DNA from: an uncultured Alphaproteobacteria bacterium
GTDB lineage: Bacteria > Pseudomonadota > Alphaproteobacteria > CAAGCB01 > CAG-977
Direction: 5' to 3'
Assembly (NCBI GenBank): GCA_944391535.1
Contig: CALXTY010000004.1
Location: 1 to 35,061 of the forward strand
DNA length: 35,061 nucleotides
The translations under genes were made by a program, and so were the position numbers. Shown in pieces: positions 10,181 to 35,061 of this stretch; within the stretch, counting starts at the first letter, position 1, and every line of letters begins with the position of its first letter. The notes under the pieces are model-generated. The model saw only the letters and a list, made by a program, of their open reading frames with translations, was not told the origin of the DNA and did not search any database.

Positions 10181-10208
10181 AATATAGCGGTTTTTGACGT
10201 TTTTTCAA
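10181..10208 (-). promoter_or_regulatory. Sigma-70-type promoter of the ferredoxin gene
   Basis: On the minus strand TTGAAA (10203-10208), a 16-base spacer and TATATT (10181-10186) form a good housekeeping promoter about 40 bases before the ferredoxin start. It interleaves with the divergent promoter of the structured RNA. Confidence 0.65.
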
Positions 10209-10221
10209 GCCTGAATATGAA
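10194..10221 (+). promoter_or_regulatory. Sigma-70-type promoter of the structured RNA
   Basis: TTGACG (10194-10199), a 16-base spacer and TATGAA (10216-10221). A transcript would start near 10228 and run through the stem-loops to the terminator ending at 10512. Confidence 0.55.
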
Positions 10222-10512
10222 AGCGGTCAAAATTTCCCGGCAGGTAAGAATTTTGTAACCGTTTGGCTTTATCTTTTAACCGGAACGTTTGATGAATGTT
10301 CCGGGGTGTGGAAACCCCTCTAATGCGTCTTGTGTAAAGACGATAATTTTGCACGCCTTCTGGTTTAACGACCGGAAGACGACAAAATAAGTGTATATGA
10401 AACACCGTGGAATACTAGTTAACCGCGGCGCTTTTGTTATATACGAATATGTCGCACTATTTCATTAGAGTAGTTTCCAACTTCCGGTCGCCTTCATCAG
10501 GCGACTTTTTTT
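10221..10512 (+). ncRNA. Candidate structured non-coding RNA of unknown family
   Basis: The 389-base gap between the ferredoxin gene and the R-M genes is filled with consecutive hairpins. SL1 is 10221-10234 with 10249-10264 (one two-base bulge). SL2 is 10280-10289 with 10295-10304. A short GGGGT/ACCCC stem is 10303-10307 with 10314-10318. SL3 is 10326-10331 with 10337-10342. SL4 is 10354-10364 with 10371-10381 (one mismatch). SL5 is 10391-10394 with 10402-10405. SL6 is 10405-10410 with 10423-10428. A terminator hairpin closes the unit. With its own promoter this looks like a discrete RNA of about 285 bases. I see no hallmark of tmRNA, RNase P, 6S or SRP RNA. It could instead be an attenuating leader of the R-M operon. 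A 32-codon ORF (10292-10390) lies inside. Confidence 0.6.
10487..10512 (+). terminator. Rho-independent terminator ending the structured RNA
   Basis: GTCGCC (10487-10492) pairs with GGCGAC (10500-10505) across a 7-base loop and is followed by seven T residues. It sits only 18 bases before the R-M start codon, so R-M transcription must either read through it or start within this short stretch. Confidence 0.85.
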
Positions 10513-10530
10513 GTTTAAAGGAAACGCTTG

Positions 10531-12534
10531 ATGCCCAGTATCGAAGAAAAAATCGAAAACATTGCCAAGGAACAGCTGAAAAAATGCCGGACGTTCACGA
10601 AAACCGAAAGCATTAACACGGAAATTGACGACGCATTGAAAAGCGCCCCGTCTAAAAGCGGCGGGAAGGGAAACAACTATCCCGACATCAAATTGTTTCT
10701 GACGACAAAGAGCAACCGCAAAATCCCCGTGATGATTGAAGTTAAAGGAACTAAGGGAGCTTTGATCAAAACCGCACCGAATGGTGAAATCGACAAATCA
10801 AAGGCGTCCAATATTCAAAAATACGCGGTGAACGGAGCGGTTCATTACGCCGACGCGATTGTGAAAAACACAATGTCATACAAAGAATCCGTCGCCGTCG
10901 GTATGAACGGATACGAAGACGCGGGCGAAATCAAAACGGAACTGGGCGTTTATTACGTTTCGGCGAACAATTTTTGTATTCCGAAAAAAGTTGGCGATTA
11001 CAGCGATTTAAGTTTTCTGTATCCGGAAAACTTTGAAAATTTCGTTCAAAAAATCGACGCGCTTTATTTAACTGAAGAGGAAAAGGAAGCGAAAGCCAAA
11101 GATTACGAAAATCAGATCGAAATCAAACTAAAAGCGTTAAACCAAAGAATGCACGACGAACTAAAAATATCCGTCGGATCGCGCGTTCAACTGGTGGCGG
11201 GGCTGATTATGGCGGCTTTAGGTGTTGACGGCAGGGTTTCCCCGTTGGAAATAGCAGATTTAAAGGGTGACACGGGGGAAAATTCAAATGACGGAAAGAT
11301 CGTTGTTAACAAAATCGCCGACTTTTTAAACGAAAAGAATCTGCCCAAGGAAAAGCGGGAATTGATTATTTCCGATTTGTCGCAAGTGTTCATCTATTCG
11401 CAGATTTACAAACCTAAAAATGGCGAAAGCGCGATAAAAACCGTTTACACCGTCATCAAAAACGACATCATGCCAATTTTCACATCGGCGCGGCATTTGG
11501 ATTTTACGGGCAGGCTGTTCAATGTGTTGAACGAATGGGTGGATATTCCGGACGGCGATAAAAACGACGTCGTGCTGACCCCGCGCTATGTCTGCGAATT
11601 TATGGCGAAACTGTGCAAAATCAACAAGGACAGCTACGTTTGGGACTATGCGACGGGCAGCGCTGGATTTTTGATTTCCGCGATGAAGCAAATGATTGAC
11701 GATGCGGAAAAAACAATCGCTAGCCCGAAAGAACGCACCGAAAAAATCGCACACATCAAGTATTTTCAGCTACTTGGCGTTGAATTGCGCGCTGACATTT
11801 ATATGCTGGCGGTGCTGAATATGATTTTGATGGGGGACGGATCGTGCAACATTTTGCACAAGGATTCTCTAATCGAATTTAACGGAAATTACGAACAAGG
11901 GACGCAAAAAGACACGCCATTTCCCGCCGATGTGTTCCTGTTGAATCCACCCTATTCCGCCAAAGGAAAAGGATTCGTTTTTGTTGAACGCGCGCTGAGC
12001 CGAATGTCGGGCGGACGCGCCGCAGTTTTGATTCAGGAAAACGCCGGTAGCGGCAACGGTTTGCCCTACACAAAGGAAATATTGAAACGCAACACGTTGG
12101 TCGCCGCGATTCACATGAGCGACATTTTTTGTGGCAAAGCGGGTGTTCAAACGGCGATTTACGTTTTCGACGTCGGCATTCCGCATAATACGGATAATTT
12201 GGTGAAATTCATTGATTTTTCAAACGATGGATATACGCGCCAAAACCGCAAAAAATCCGCTTCGGACGTGAATTTAAAAAATACGGACGACGCGACAGGG
12301 CGTTACCAGGAAATTATTGATATTGTTTTAGGGCGTAAAAAGAAAACGTCCTATTTTGATGATTGCGTGATTGAAGACATAATCTCTTTAAAGGGCGATG
12401 ATTGGACATATGCGCAACACAAACGGGTGGATACGATTCCTACCGAATCCGATTTCAGAAAAACAGTCGCAGATTATCTGGCGTGGAAAGTATCGACACT
12501 GTTGAAATCGGAGGGAACACCCGAAAATTTTTGA
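10531..12534 (+). CDS. BcgI-like (Type IIB) restriction-modification enzyme: nuclease and N6-adenine methyltransferase
   Basis: A 667-residue fusion that should both cut and methylate DNA together with the specificity subunit downstream. Residues 1 to about 190 hold a PD-(D/E)xK-type nuclease: P51-D52, then E70-V-K72 (YPDIKLFL...VMIEVKG). The rest is a Type I/HsdM-like gamma N6-adenine methyltransferase with the SAM-binding motif DYATGSAGF (372-380) and catalytic NPPY (472-475). A nuclease fused to an HsdM-like subunit plus a separate S subunit, with no separate HsdR, is the BcgI arrangement, whose enzymes cut on both sides of their site. The ATG at 10531 has AAAGGA 8 bases upstream, so I prefer it to the TTG just before it. 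Confidence 0.88.
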   Translation: MPSIEEKIENIAKEQLKKCRTFTKTESINTEIDDALKSAPSKSGGKGNNYPDIKLFLTTKSNRKIPVMIEVKGTKGALIKTAPNGEIDKSKASNIQKYAVNGAVHYADAIVKNTMSYKESVAVGMNGYEDAGEIKTELGVYYVSANNFCIPKKVGDYSDLSFLYPENFENFVQKIDALYLTEEEKEAKAKDYENQIEIKLKALNQRMHDELKISVGSRVQLVAGLIMAALGVDGRVSPLEIADLKGDTGENSNDGKIVVNKIADFLNEKNLPKEKRELIISDLSQVFIYSQIYKPKNGESAIKTVYTVIKNDIMPIFTSARHLDFTGRLFNVLNEWVDIPDGDKNDVVLTPRYVCEFMAKLCKINKDSYVWDYATGSAGFLISAMKQMIDDAEKTIASPKERTEKIAHIKYFQLLGVELRADIYMLAVLNMILMGDGSCNILHKDSLIEFNGNYEQGTQKDTPFPADVFLLNPPYSAKGKGFVFVERALSRMSGGRAAVLIQENAGSGNGLPYTKEILKRNTLVAAIHMSDIFCGKAGVQTAIYVFDVGIPHNTDNLVKFIDFSNDGYTRQNRKKSASDVNLKNTDDATGRYQEIIDIVLGRKKKTSYFDDCVIEDIISLKGDDWTYAQHKRVDTIPTESDFRKTVADYLAWKVSTLLKSEGTPENF

Positions 12535-13682
12535 CTAGCCCCCGTTTGGAAAAATTGAACAAAGAATTTAAACGAAACGGGGGCCAATGGAAAAAATTTA
12601 AAATCGAAGATCTGTTTGAAGTCGAATCTTCTAAAAAAATATTTCACGCAAATACATTAAATGAAATTTTTGAAAATCAAGTTGAGACTTCCCACCCTTA
12701 TGTCGTCAGAAGTACCCAAAACAATGGCATAAGAGGTTATATCATTGAAGATGTCTGCTTTTTAAATGAAGGCAACTCTTTGTCTTTTGCACAAGATACA
12801 TTTTCTGTTTTTTATCAACAAAAAAACTTTTTCACTGGAAACAAAGTAAAAATTTTAAAACCCAAGTTTATTTTAAATCATCAAAACGCTCATTTCTTCG
12901 TTTGCTGTTTTAATAAGGTTCTTTCTGACTTTTCCTGGGGAGTTTGTTCAGATGTTAATTTTATTAAAAATTTAAAGTTAACACTTCCCGCCACACTCCA
13001 AGGAACGCCTGATTTTTCCTATATGGAACGCTATATTTGCGAGCTTGAACAAGCGCGCGTCAGCGAGCTTGCAACATACCTGCGCGCCGCCGGATTGGAA
13101 AATTACGATTTAACCGCCGCAGAACAAACCGCGCTGGACAATTTTAAAAACGGAAAAATCCGGTTCAAGGAATTTAAAATCGGAGAATTGTTTGATGTTG
13201 TTAAAGGCAAGCGACTGACAAAACAAAATATAAGGCCAGGAAACATCAATTTTTTAGGGGCTATCTCTTCCAATAACGGGATACGGGAACATATTGAAAC
13301 GACAACCGTATGGAAACCGAATTGTATATCCGTTAACTATAACGGCAGTGTCGGCTGTTCTTTTTATCAGGAAGAGCCTTTTTACGCTTCCGATGATGTG
13401 AATATATGTTATTCAAAAGAAAATTGGAGTCTGAACAGAAAACGGGCATTGTTTTTCTGTGCCGTATTTAAAAATTTTTCTCAAAATTTCAGTTATACGC
13501 AAAAATGGAATAAAGAGCGAATGATAGAAAGCTTTGTATTCATTCCCGTCACTGACAACGTACCCGATTTCGCCTTTATGGAATCGTTCATCACCGCACA
13601 GCAAAAGCTGGCGATAAAGGAGGTTGTTCTGTGGAAAGATAAAGTTATTTCAACGACAAAAAAAGTCATTAATGAAAGTTAA
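12531..13682 (+). CDS. DNA specificity subunit of the BcgI-like system
   Basis: A 383-residue HsdS/BcgIB-type protein that reads the two halves of a bipartite target. Two half-repeats are visible: WKKFKIEDLFEV (from residue 20) to PDFSYMERYI (from 160), and RFKEFKIGELFDV (from 211) to PDFAFMESFI (from 345). They are joined by a helical spacer with LEQARVSELATYLRAAGL. The first target-recognition domain (about 12600-13000) is clearly more AT-rich than its surroundings, as expected for exchangeable recognition domains. I take the TTG at 12531, which overlaps the upstream stop as TTGA, with GGAGGG about 15 bases upstream. The frame is open back to 12402, but that start would overlap the previous gene by 130 bases. 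The stop overlaps that of the convergent S4 gene. Confidence 0.87.
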   Translation: MTSPRLEKLNKEFKRNGGQWKKFKIEDLFEVESSKKIFHANTLNEIFENQVETSHPYVVRSTQNNGIRGYIIEDVCFLNEGNSLSFAQDTFSVFYQQKNFFTGNKVKILKPKFILNHQNAHFFVCCFNKVLSDFSWGVCSDVNFIKNLKLTLPATLQGTPDFSYMERYICELEQARVSELATYLRAAGLENYDLTAAEQTALDNFKNGKIRFKEFKIGELFDVVKGKRLTKQNIRPGNINFLGAISSNNGIREHIETTTVWKPNCISVNYNGSVGCSFYQEEPFYASDDVNICYSKENWSLNRKRALFFCAVFKNFSQNFSYTQKWNKERMIESFVFIPVTDNVPDFAFMESFITAQQKLAIKEVVLWKDKVISTTKKVINES

Positions 13683-34683: not shown

Positions 34684-35061
34684 ACCCTTGATTCGGAGAT
34701 TTTGGAACCGGATTAACCGGCGTTTCATTTTGATGCAAAGCCTTAGGAATTTTAACACGAACAACCCCCGGCATTTTAGGAATTTTCACCATACCCGGCG
34801 GCATCTTAATCGGTATTTTTTTCATGACGGGCATCTTCATCACCGGAGTTTTTAAAGCAACGGGAGGAATATTGCCGATCGTATTTTCTTCCTGAAGCGA
34901 CGGCGCTTGAATCGGAGAGAACGTAAACATATTTTCTTCAATTTCGGGATATTCGGGCACCGACGGTTCTTCCTCAACCGGCAGTTCCGCTTCGACTTCG
35001 GGATATTCGGGCACCGACGGTTCTTCCTCAACCGGCAATTCCGCTTCGACTTCGGGATATT
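34682..35061 (-). CDS. Proline-rich repeat protein, C-terminal part
   Basis: The gene runs in from the right edge, so the start is not visible. The 125 residues seen begin with acidic repeats of 18 residues (LPVEEEPSVPEYPEVEAE, then a copy ending EYPEIEEN). A basic Pro/Met/Lys-rich stretch follows (KTPVMKMPVMKKIPIKMPP, then VKIPKMPGVVRVKIPKAL), and then a polar end. There is no domain I can name. The charge reversal between the two low-complexity halves is notable. A cell-surface or cell-division linker protein is conceivable, but there is no evidence. The TTG at 35038 is an internal Leu codon, not a start. Confidence 0.7.
   Translation of the reverse strand, partial: YPEVEAELPVEEEPSVPEYPEVEAELPVEEEPSVPEYPEIEENMFTFSPIQAPSLQEENTIGNIPPVALKTPVMKMPVMKKIPIKMPPGMVKIPKMPGVVRVKIPKALHQNETPVNPVPKSPNQG
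34946..35061. repeat. 54-bp tandem repeat in the coding region
   Basis: Near-identical units are spaced exactly 54 bases apart (the same GGGATATT at 34946, 35000 and 35054), differing by single bases. The array continues past the window edge. Each unit encodes 18 residues, so copy-number changes keep the frame. Confidence 0.9.

Follow-up and report, generated by a model that had tools for sequence, protein, structure and literature searches.

A multi-copy RNA family of Alphaproteobacteria that probably acts as cis-leaders with competing folds and almost certainly includes the Brt RNAs of Bartonella

An RNA in front of a restriction-modification operon

What precedes the restriction-modification (R-M) genes of this uncultured alphaproteobacterium? 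The window, as we call the whole stretch of 35,061 nt that was analysed, holds on its plus strand a folded RNA with an intrinsic terminator, followed by a methyltransferase gene and a specificity-subunit gene. The former is large and carries an N-terminal extension, and the frame of the latter overlaps it. Judged by its gene layout, the operon (10531-13682) is probably type IIB/BcgI-like; a PDB sequence search with it returned no relative. The features are given below, where SD stands for Shine-Dalgarno and bit scores refer to two covariance models, R1 (made from five sequences) and R2 (broader).

10244..10273, plus strand: probable promoter position, with a signature at the same offset in 69 relatives; the -35 is degenerate here
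10280..10512, plus strand: leader RNA; covariance-model match 10283-10508 (R1 262 bits, R2 154 bits)
10280..10304, plus strand: P0, the 5′ hairpin, with loop TGATGAA (10290-10296)
10303..10315, plus strand: A5, the 5′ strand of P1a (GGGGTGTGGAAAC), from sequence comparison and covariation
10318..10325, plus strand: P1b 5′ strand, partner 10463-10470 (own versus cross pairing z = -27)
10326..10342, plus strand: P2 hairpin, from comparison of close relatives and 82-sequence covariation
10354..10381, plus strand: P3 hairpin, from comparison, own-versus-cross pairing and window-copy energies
10380..10454, plus strand: P4, whose internal loop AAAATAAG / AATAT is conserved and whose inner stem (10391-10444) varies, from sequence comparison
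10456..10474, plus strand: P5, ACTAT (10456-10460) with GTAGT (10470-10474), on either side of the P1b 3′ strand
10473..10489, plus strand: hub strand GTTTCCAACTTCCGGTC, with alternative partners A5, the P3 3′ strand (P6), the terminator 3′ arm and the SD region
10486..10512, plus strand: intrinsic terminator, GGTCGCC-TTCAT-CAGGCGACT-TTTTTT
10517..10533, plus strand: SD region AAAGGAAACG with ATG (10531); GGAAAC (10520-10525) complements hub GTTTCC (10473-10478)
10531..12534, plus strand: downstream gene 1, N6-adenine methyltransferase (Pfam N6_Mtase, E 1.6e-18)
12402..13682, plus strand: downstream gene 2, specificity subunit of the R-M system (Pfam Methylase_S, E 1.3e-25); its start codon is uncertain

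The preliminary description of this DNA had placed a strongly folded RNA at 10221-10512, with a clean intrinsic terminator behind it. Both points hold: the minimum free energy of that segment is -102.4 kcal/mol versus -70.3 ± 5.2 kcal/mol for 200 dinucleotide shuffles (z = -6.1; 0/200), relatives keep five stems (10280-10304, 10326-10342, 10354-10381, 10391-10444 and 10486-10506) together with a long-range helix (10303-10325/10463-10485), and the terminator is confirmed at 10486-10512. The upstream end had to be redrawn. In the alignment of blastn homologues, identity begins at ~10278, upstream of which similarity breaks off abruptly in three relatives, and the U-tract forms the 3′ border. The 5′ boundary at 10221 and a first stem at 10221-10264, as originally proposed, thus fall outside the conserved unit, as does the proposed promoter (TTGACG 10194-10199, TATGAA 10216-10221), which is also missing from the promoter scan listing. 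Sequence comparison indicates that the RNA is real and narrower than first reported, spanning ~10280-10512, with its 5′ end just before the 10280 hairpin.

A promoter signature directly before the first hairpin—TT at -36/-35 and a TATAxT-like motif at -14 to -8—is common to the 69 relatives (mean -35/-10 score 8.52 versus 7.44 ± 0.11 shuffled). The hexamers of the window copy itself are weak, its -10 being TTTATC at 10268-10273, ~7 nt before the RNA. The RNA is partly palindromic, so that the opposite strand likewise folds well; the plus strand was assigned from promoter, terminator and gene orientation.

Identity with a known RNA family was rejected. Rfam 15, with tmRNA, RNase P, 6S, SRP RNA and the known riboswitches among its families, gave 0 matches at the gathering cut-off in the window, and at 20 homologous loci no family matched across the element; ARAGORN found no tRNA or tmRNA.

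Relatives and the genes that follow them

How far does the RNA reach beyond this locus? By blastn, homologues appeared in only 4 of 95 other genomes (2/6 in the genus, 1/5 more in the family, and one distant). R1 recovered full-length paralogues within the same family of genomes and matches in 23/385 genomes of the class, and R2 detected the RNA in 39/385 alphaproteobacterial genomes sampled (30/276 genera) and in 11/12 genomes of the window's family. Of 398 genomes sampled across the phylum, five were positive with R2, all in the same class, within which the leader RNA occurs across many families. A third model, R3, was trained on type-B members, with Bartonella and the window type both left out. 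Built without the window copy or its close relatives, it nevertheless scores the window RNA at 53.4 bits (E 4.5e-16). At 34742-34880 on the minus strand, a weak R3 match (11 bits, E 0.026) may be a diverged second copy or chance.

The window's own genome holds 21 R2 matches at E <= 0.01, and copy number peaks at 35 in a 1.6-Mb genome and at ~16 in one of 0.9 Mb. Several copies in the window's genome lie a few hundred bases from contig ends, and several precede related Cys-rich exported proteins; the repeats probably break this assembly, and the true number may exceed 21. In named genomes, a scan with a DNA pattern yielded 79 loci, nearly all from gut or rumen alphaproteobacterial MAGs. A phage-only RNA was considered and dropped: of three DNA patterns, the first hit 0 viral contigs, the second three that R2 did not recognise, and the third three true ones. 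On three IMG/VR contigs (L196, L197, L198) the leader RNA stands before exported or membrane protein genes, near phage-like genes, and in small genomes (L173 and L174; genomes G368 and G079) it follows a terminase-like gene at ~200 nt and in one case precedes a lipoprotein gene. Named phages gave no match with a Bartonella copy, and plasmids none with the window copy.

Nearly all copies finish with a terminator, and the distance from there to the next gene is almost constant: measured over well over 100 distinct genes, the median gap between RNA and start codon is 30 nt (interquartile range 27-33). Only 10 matches have no evident gene within 130 nt, some of these being cut-off or tandem copies. 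With classes assigned by simple sequence rules, lipoproteins are overrepresented among the downstream genes relative to other genes on the same kind of loci (odds ratio 16.8, p 1e-12), as are proteins with signal peptides (3.3, p 4e-6) and with prepilin-like starts (4.5, p 0.003). The RNA also stands before glycosyltransferase-like, outer-membrane, XRE and R-M genes; no metabolic gene set pointing to a ligand was found among the downstream genes.

R-M genes follow the RNA only in the window's genome (G000) and in G002 and G004, all other copies examined preceding other genes. An R-M-specific RNA was discarded on this count, and the R-M neighbourhood, offered earlier as a clue to function, is incidental. 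In relatives, the same genomic spot beside the ferredoxin gene holds other accessory genes. Between the ferredoxin and the S4-domain/helicase genes, this spot looks like a hot spot (L008, L007 and L006; genomes G004, G007 and G002), where the leader RNA has as neighbours lipoprotein genes, a HEPN/MNT-like pair or R-M systems that belong to different families; in G002, RNA and R-M unit flank ferredoxin on its opposite side. XRE-like genes follow three other copies in the window's genome: on L091 (2026-2191, 2491-2656 and 2957-3120, minus strand), three tandem 465-bp units each consist of a leader RNA and a 74-aa XRE-like gene, which resembles the Brt/Trp arrangement of Bartonella. Elsewhere (L041/L052; G032:C24 17687-17849 and 17972-18139), two leader RNAs stand in tandem ~120 bp apart, and ~220 nt after the second comes what is probably a glutamyl-tRNA synthetase gene.

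Covariation and a model of two competing folds

Which helices does evolution maintain? The preliminary description had suggested searching alphaproteobacterial relatives and checking the stems for covariation, and the homologues described above covary strongly. The 82 distinct sequences compared pair in 92.5% of cells and have changed on both sides at 49 of the 59 modelled pairs, with a covariation score of 0.492 versus 0.187 after shuffling and 0.06-0.09 after sliding; the alignment was fitted to the model, as alignments A6-A9 were, and its counts lean towards it. All 7 pairs of P0 are altered on both sides in this set, and four close relatives already show a compensatory G-C/A-U change there. 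A second test took 70 non-redundant members, used the model solely to anchor windows and compared the pairing of a strand with its own partner window to that with other members' windows. Own pairing stood out for P1a (z -19.6), P1b (-27.1), P6 (-16.6), P1′ (-9.1) and P5 (-7.4), P0 and terminator stems behaved as expected, and the P0 loop covaried with the terminator loop (7.8), whose TTCATCA (10493-10499) complements it. The hub paired with the downstream 60 nt that hold the SD region at z -9.8, with the upstream 60 nt as control at z 0.0; SD-type sequences generally complement CTCC-type strands, for which the cross-pair control accounts.

Permutation within each of three subfamilies, which reduces shared ancestry without removing it, left P6 and the hub–SD pairing significant in all three (hub–SD: 0, 3 and 0 of 5000 permutations). 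P5 was significant only in the mixed group, and the covariation of P0 and terminator loops was clear only in subfamily A (z = 7.0). At the level of sequence comparison, then, the position, structure and covariation of P1a, P1b, P3, P6, the terminator and the hub–SD pairing are established. One further long-range helix, P3ext (ATTTTG/CAAAAT), is kept in a subset of members only and was left out of the consensus.

Several of these helices exclude each other. The P3 3′ strand GACCGGAAG (10370-10378) is an antiterminator-like partner of the hub, and A5 together with 10316-10318 can alternatively make a local hairpin, P1′ (GGGG..CCCC). For the type-B alignment, RNAalifold chose the second fold (P1′, P6, P4, P5) unprompted, and in the window copy P6 reaches -18.4 kcal/mol versus -13.0 for P3; in several members P6 shortens the terminator rather than abolishing it. 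The internal loop of P4, AATAAG opposite AATAT, is the most conserved unpaired feature of the RNA. In some members (L036, L038, L049) its two strands occur in swapped order, as if the inner stem were circularly permuted.

Because the same RNA precedes well over 100 genes at a near-fixed distance, and the ribosome-binding site of the next gene covaries with strands of the RNA, we read it as an attenuating leader. It is probable that the window RNA is a cis-acting leader of the downstream operon, with two competing folds and hub–SD control, and that it belongs to a large family in Alphaproteobacteria of which the Brt RNAs of Bartonella are also members. Transcription would start just before the 5′ hairpin and produce an RNA of ~230 nt. 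In the first fold, the hub would close P1a and P1b around P2-P4, the terminator would form and transcription would stop before the gene. In the second, the P3 3′ strand would capture the hub as P6 and remove the base of the terminator stem, accompanied by the P4 domain and by P1′ and P5 as local hairpins, and read-through would be favoured. Once transcription has read through, the 5′ part of the hub, now free, could pair with the SD region of the mRNA and so add a further level of control, in translation. Which fold forms would most likely depend on a signal that the conserved P4 internal loop senses. That the folds really interchange, with this on/off polarity and with P4 as candidate sensor, is what we infer.

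Could a leader at this position work by another route, such as processive antitermination, a bound protein or a thermosensor, instead of signal-driven helix switching? RfaH/LoaP-type systems likewise act on diverse accessory targets, and a metabolic gene set that would point to a ligand is absent downstream; but mutually exclusive helices covary here, which a processive antitermination element would not need, and we consider such a route rather unlikely. Of the two options originally raised, an attenuating leader of the R-M operon or an independent regulatory RNA, fixed gene spacing and SD covariation favour the leader, and the RNA appears to be an attenuator or riboswitch-like element, not mainly an independent sRNA. 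As a main reading, an sRNA made from the TTGACG/TATGAA promoter was rejected, since neither that promoter nor the first stem is conserved and the RNA is linked to the gene behind it. There is little likelihood, in our estimate, that the terminated ~230-nt RNA is itself the product, a trans-acting sRNA (or dual sRNA and leader) whose loops regulate other mRNAs: conserved start-codon spacing and hub–SD covariation need cis action, and the exposed loops differ between copies, even though the RNA has its own promoter position and terminator, its P0 loop complements and covaries with its terminator loop, as would fit a stable folded RNA, and the authors of a Brt1 knock-down in B. henselae attribute the resulting rise of badA to trans action (PMC5387305). 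Since the homologous Brt RNAs accumulate as short transcripts, an independent RNA is kept as a possible second role.

A mobile palindromic DNA element of MITE, REP or integron attC type, with promoter and terminator by chance, would account for the partial palindromy and folding of both strands, the sharp borders, and a multi-copy, patchy occurrence near accessory, prophage and plasmid genes. Yet paralogues within one genome diverge greatly in sequence while keeping their pairing, covariation extends to an SD region outside the element, and orientation and gene distance are fixed, which makes this explanation highly improbable. The MITE/attC-like version, which inverted-repeat ends and the different neighbourhoods of the first homologues had suggested, is largely refuted by covariation within subfamilies and gene spacing; among marks of mobility, the comparison covered general palindromy and orientation bias.

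The cis-acting leader with competing folds invites a bolder and more tentative extension, namely a major riboswitch-like class, so far glimpsed only in Bartonella, through which one conserved signal, sensed by the P4 loop, would govern surface and mobile genes, dozens in each genome, throughout Alphaproteobacteria. We hold this to be possible, if on balance doubtful; if true, RNA would here form a surface and defence regulon that answers to a single signal. For the window, the leader model predicts that the R-M operon is under RNA-level control, as one of many targets, and the exchange of the hub between closing helix, P3, terminator and SD region offers a testable mechanism and a structural target for a ligand search.

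Brt RNAs and other known leader systems

In Bartonella henselae, nine Brt RNAs (Brt1-9; 194-203 nt) are highly transcribed directly upstream of poorly transcribed helix-turn-helix genes; they are multi-copy, with a complex fold and a 3′ terminator-like region, and the family was termed genus-specific in a paper that holds no covariation model (PMC5387305). Our literature search found no description of the leader family outside Bartonella. R2 matched in 0/39 genomes of the genus (best 9.4 bits), and R3 in 24/39. On named plasmids, R3 scored RNAs before helix-turn-helix genes at 35.4 (B. grahamii), 37.6 (B. kosoyi) and 26.8 bits (B. sp. TT0105). The sampled genus is presumably Bartonella: a citrate-synthase primer site matches, its leader sequence matches only named Bartonella plasmids, and repeated RNAs with the same layout precede helix-turn-helix genes in it. 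Judged by genus, size, position and gene, rather than by letter-for-letter comparison, these are almost certainly the published Brt RNAs.

They share with the leader family the P0/P1a/P1b/P3/P4/P5 layout and a perfect hub:P3 complement (CTCCCGGAA/TTCCGGGAG), as well as a length of ~200 nt, multiple copies and a place directly before a gene. The P4 subtype differs, with AATAAG/AATAT in the window and TATGTCC/CTAAAAGC in Bartonella. A single sequence/structure model covers both, in keeping with common descent, and several copies per genome occur here too (21 in the window's genome). In place of the XRE helix-turn-helix regulator (Trp) that follows the Brt RNAs, however, the window copy precedes a methyltransferase and its R-M operon, and the family extends to many alphaproteobacterial families beyond the genus. 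Sequence and structure thus identify the window RNA as a homologue in a wider superfamily, not as a Brt RNA in the strict sense. Because R3, trained on neither, recognises both, RNAs regarded as genus-specific, with a link to adhesin control in Bartonella, would be one branch of a much wider class—one that reaches 35 copies in a 1.6-Mb genome, many alphaproteobacterial families, plasmids and viral contigs, and is absent from Rfam.

Among other known RNAs, sRNA-Xcc1 (RF02221) aligns weakly through the same GACCGGAAG/CTTCCGGTC pairing and, at 27 bits versus a cut-off of 53, does not include the window RNA as a member. T-box leaders are multi-copy and exchange terminator and antiterminator, as the leader RNA appears to do; unlike them, it has neither an Rfam match nor an aminoacyl-tRNA or amino-acid gene set, the tandem pair near gltX excepted. 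Riboswitches with combined terminator and SD-sequestering platforms consist of a 5′ leader with a conserved folded core, mutually exclusive helices and a terminator before the gene. The leader RNA departs from them in its surface and accessory regulon, which replaces a single metabolic pathway, and in matching no Rfam riboswitch. We call it riboswitch-like rather than a riboswitch proper: it has their 5′ leader position, folded core, mutually exclusive helices and terminator before the gene, and terminator and covarying SD pairing together provide an expression platform.
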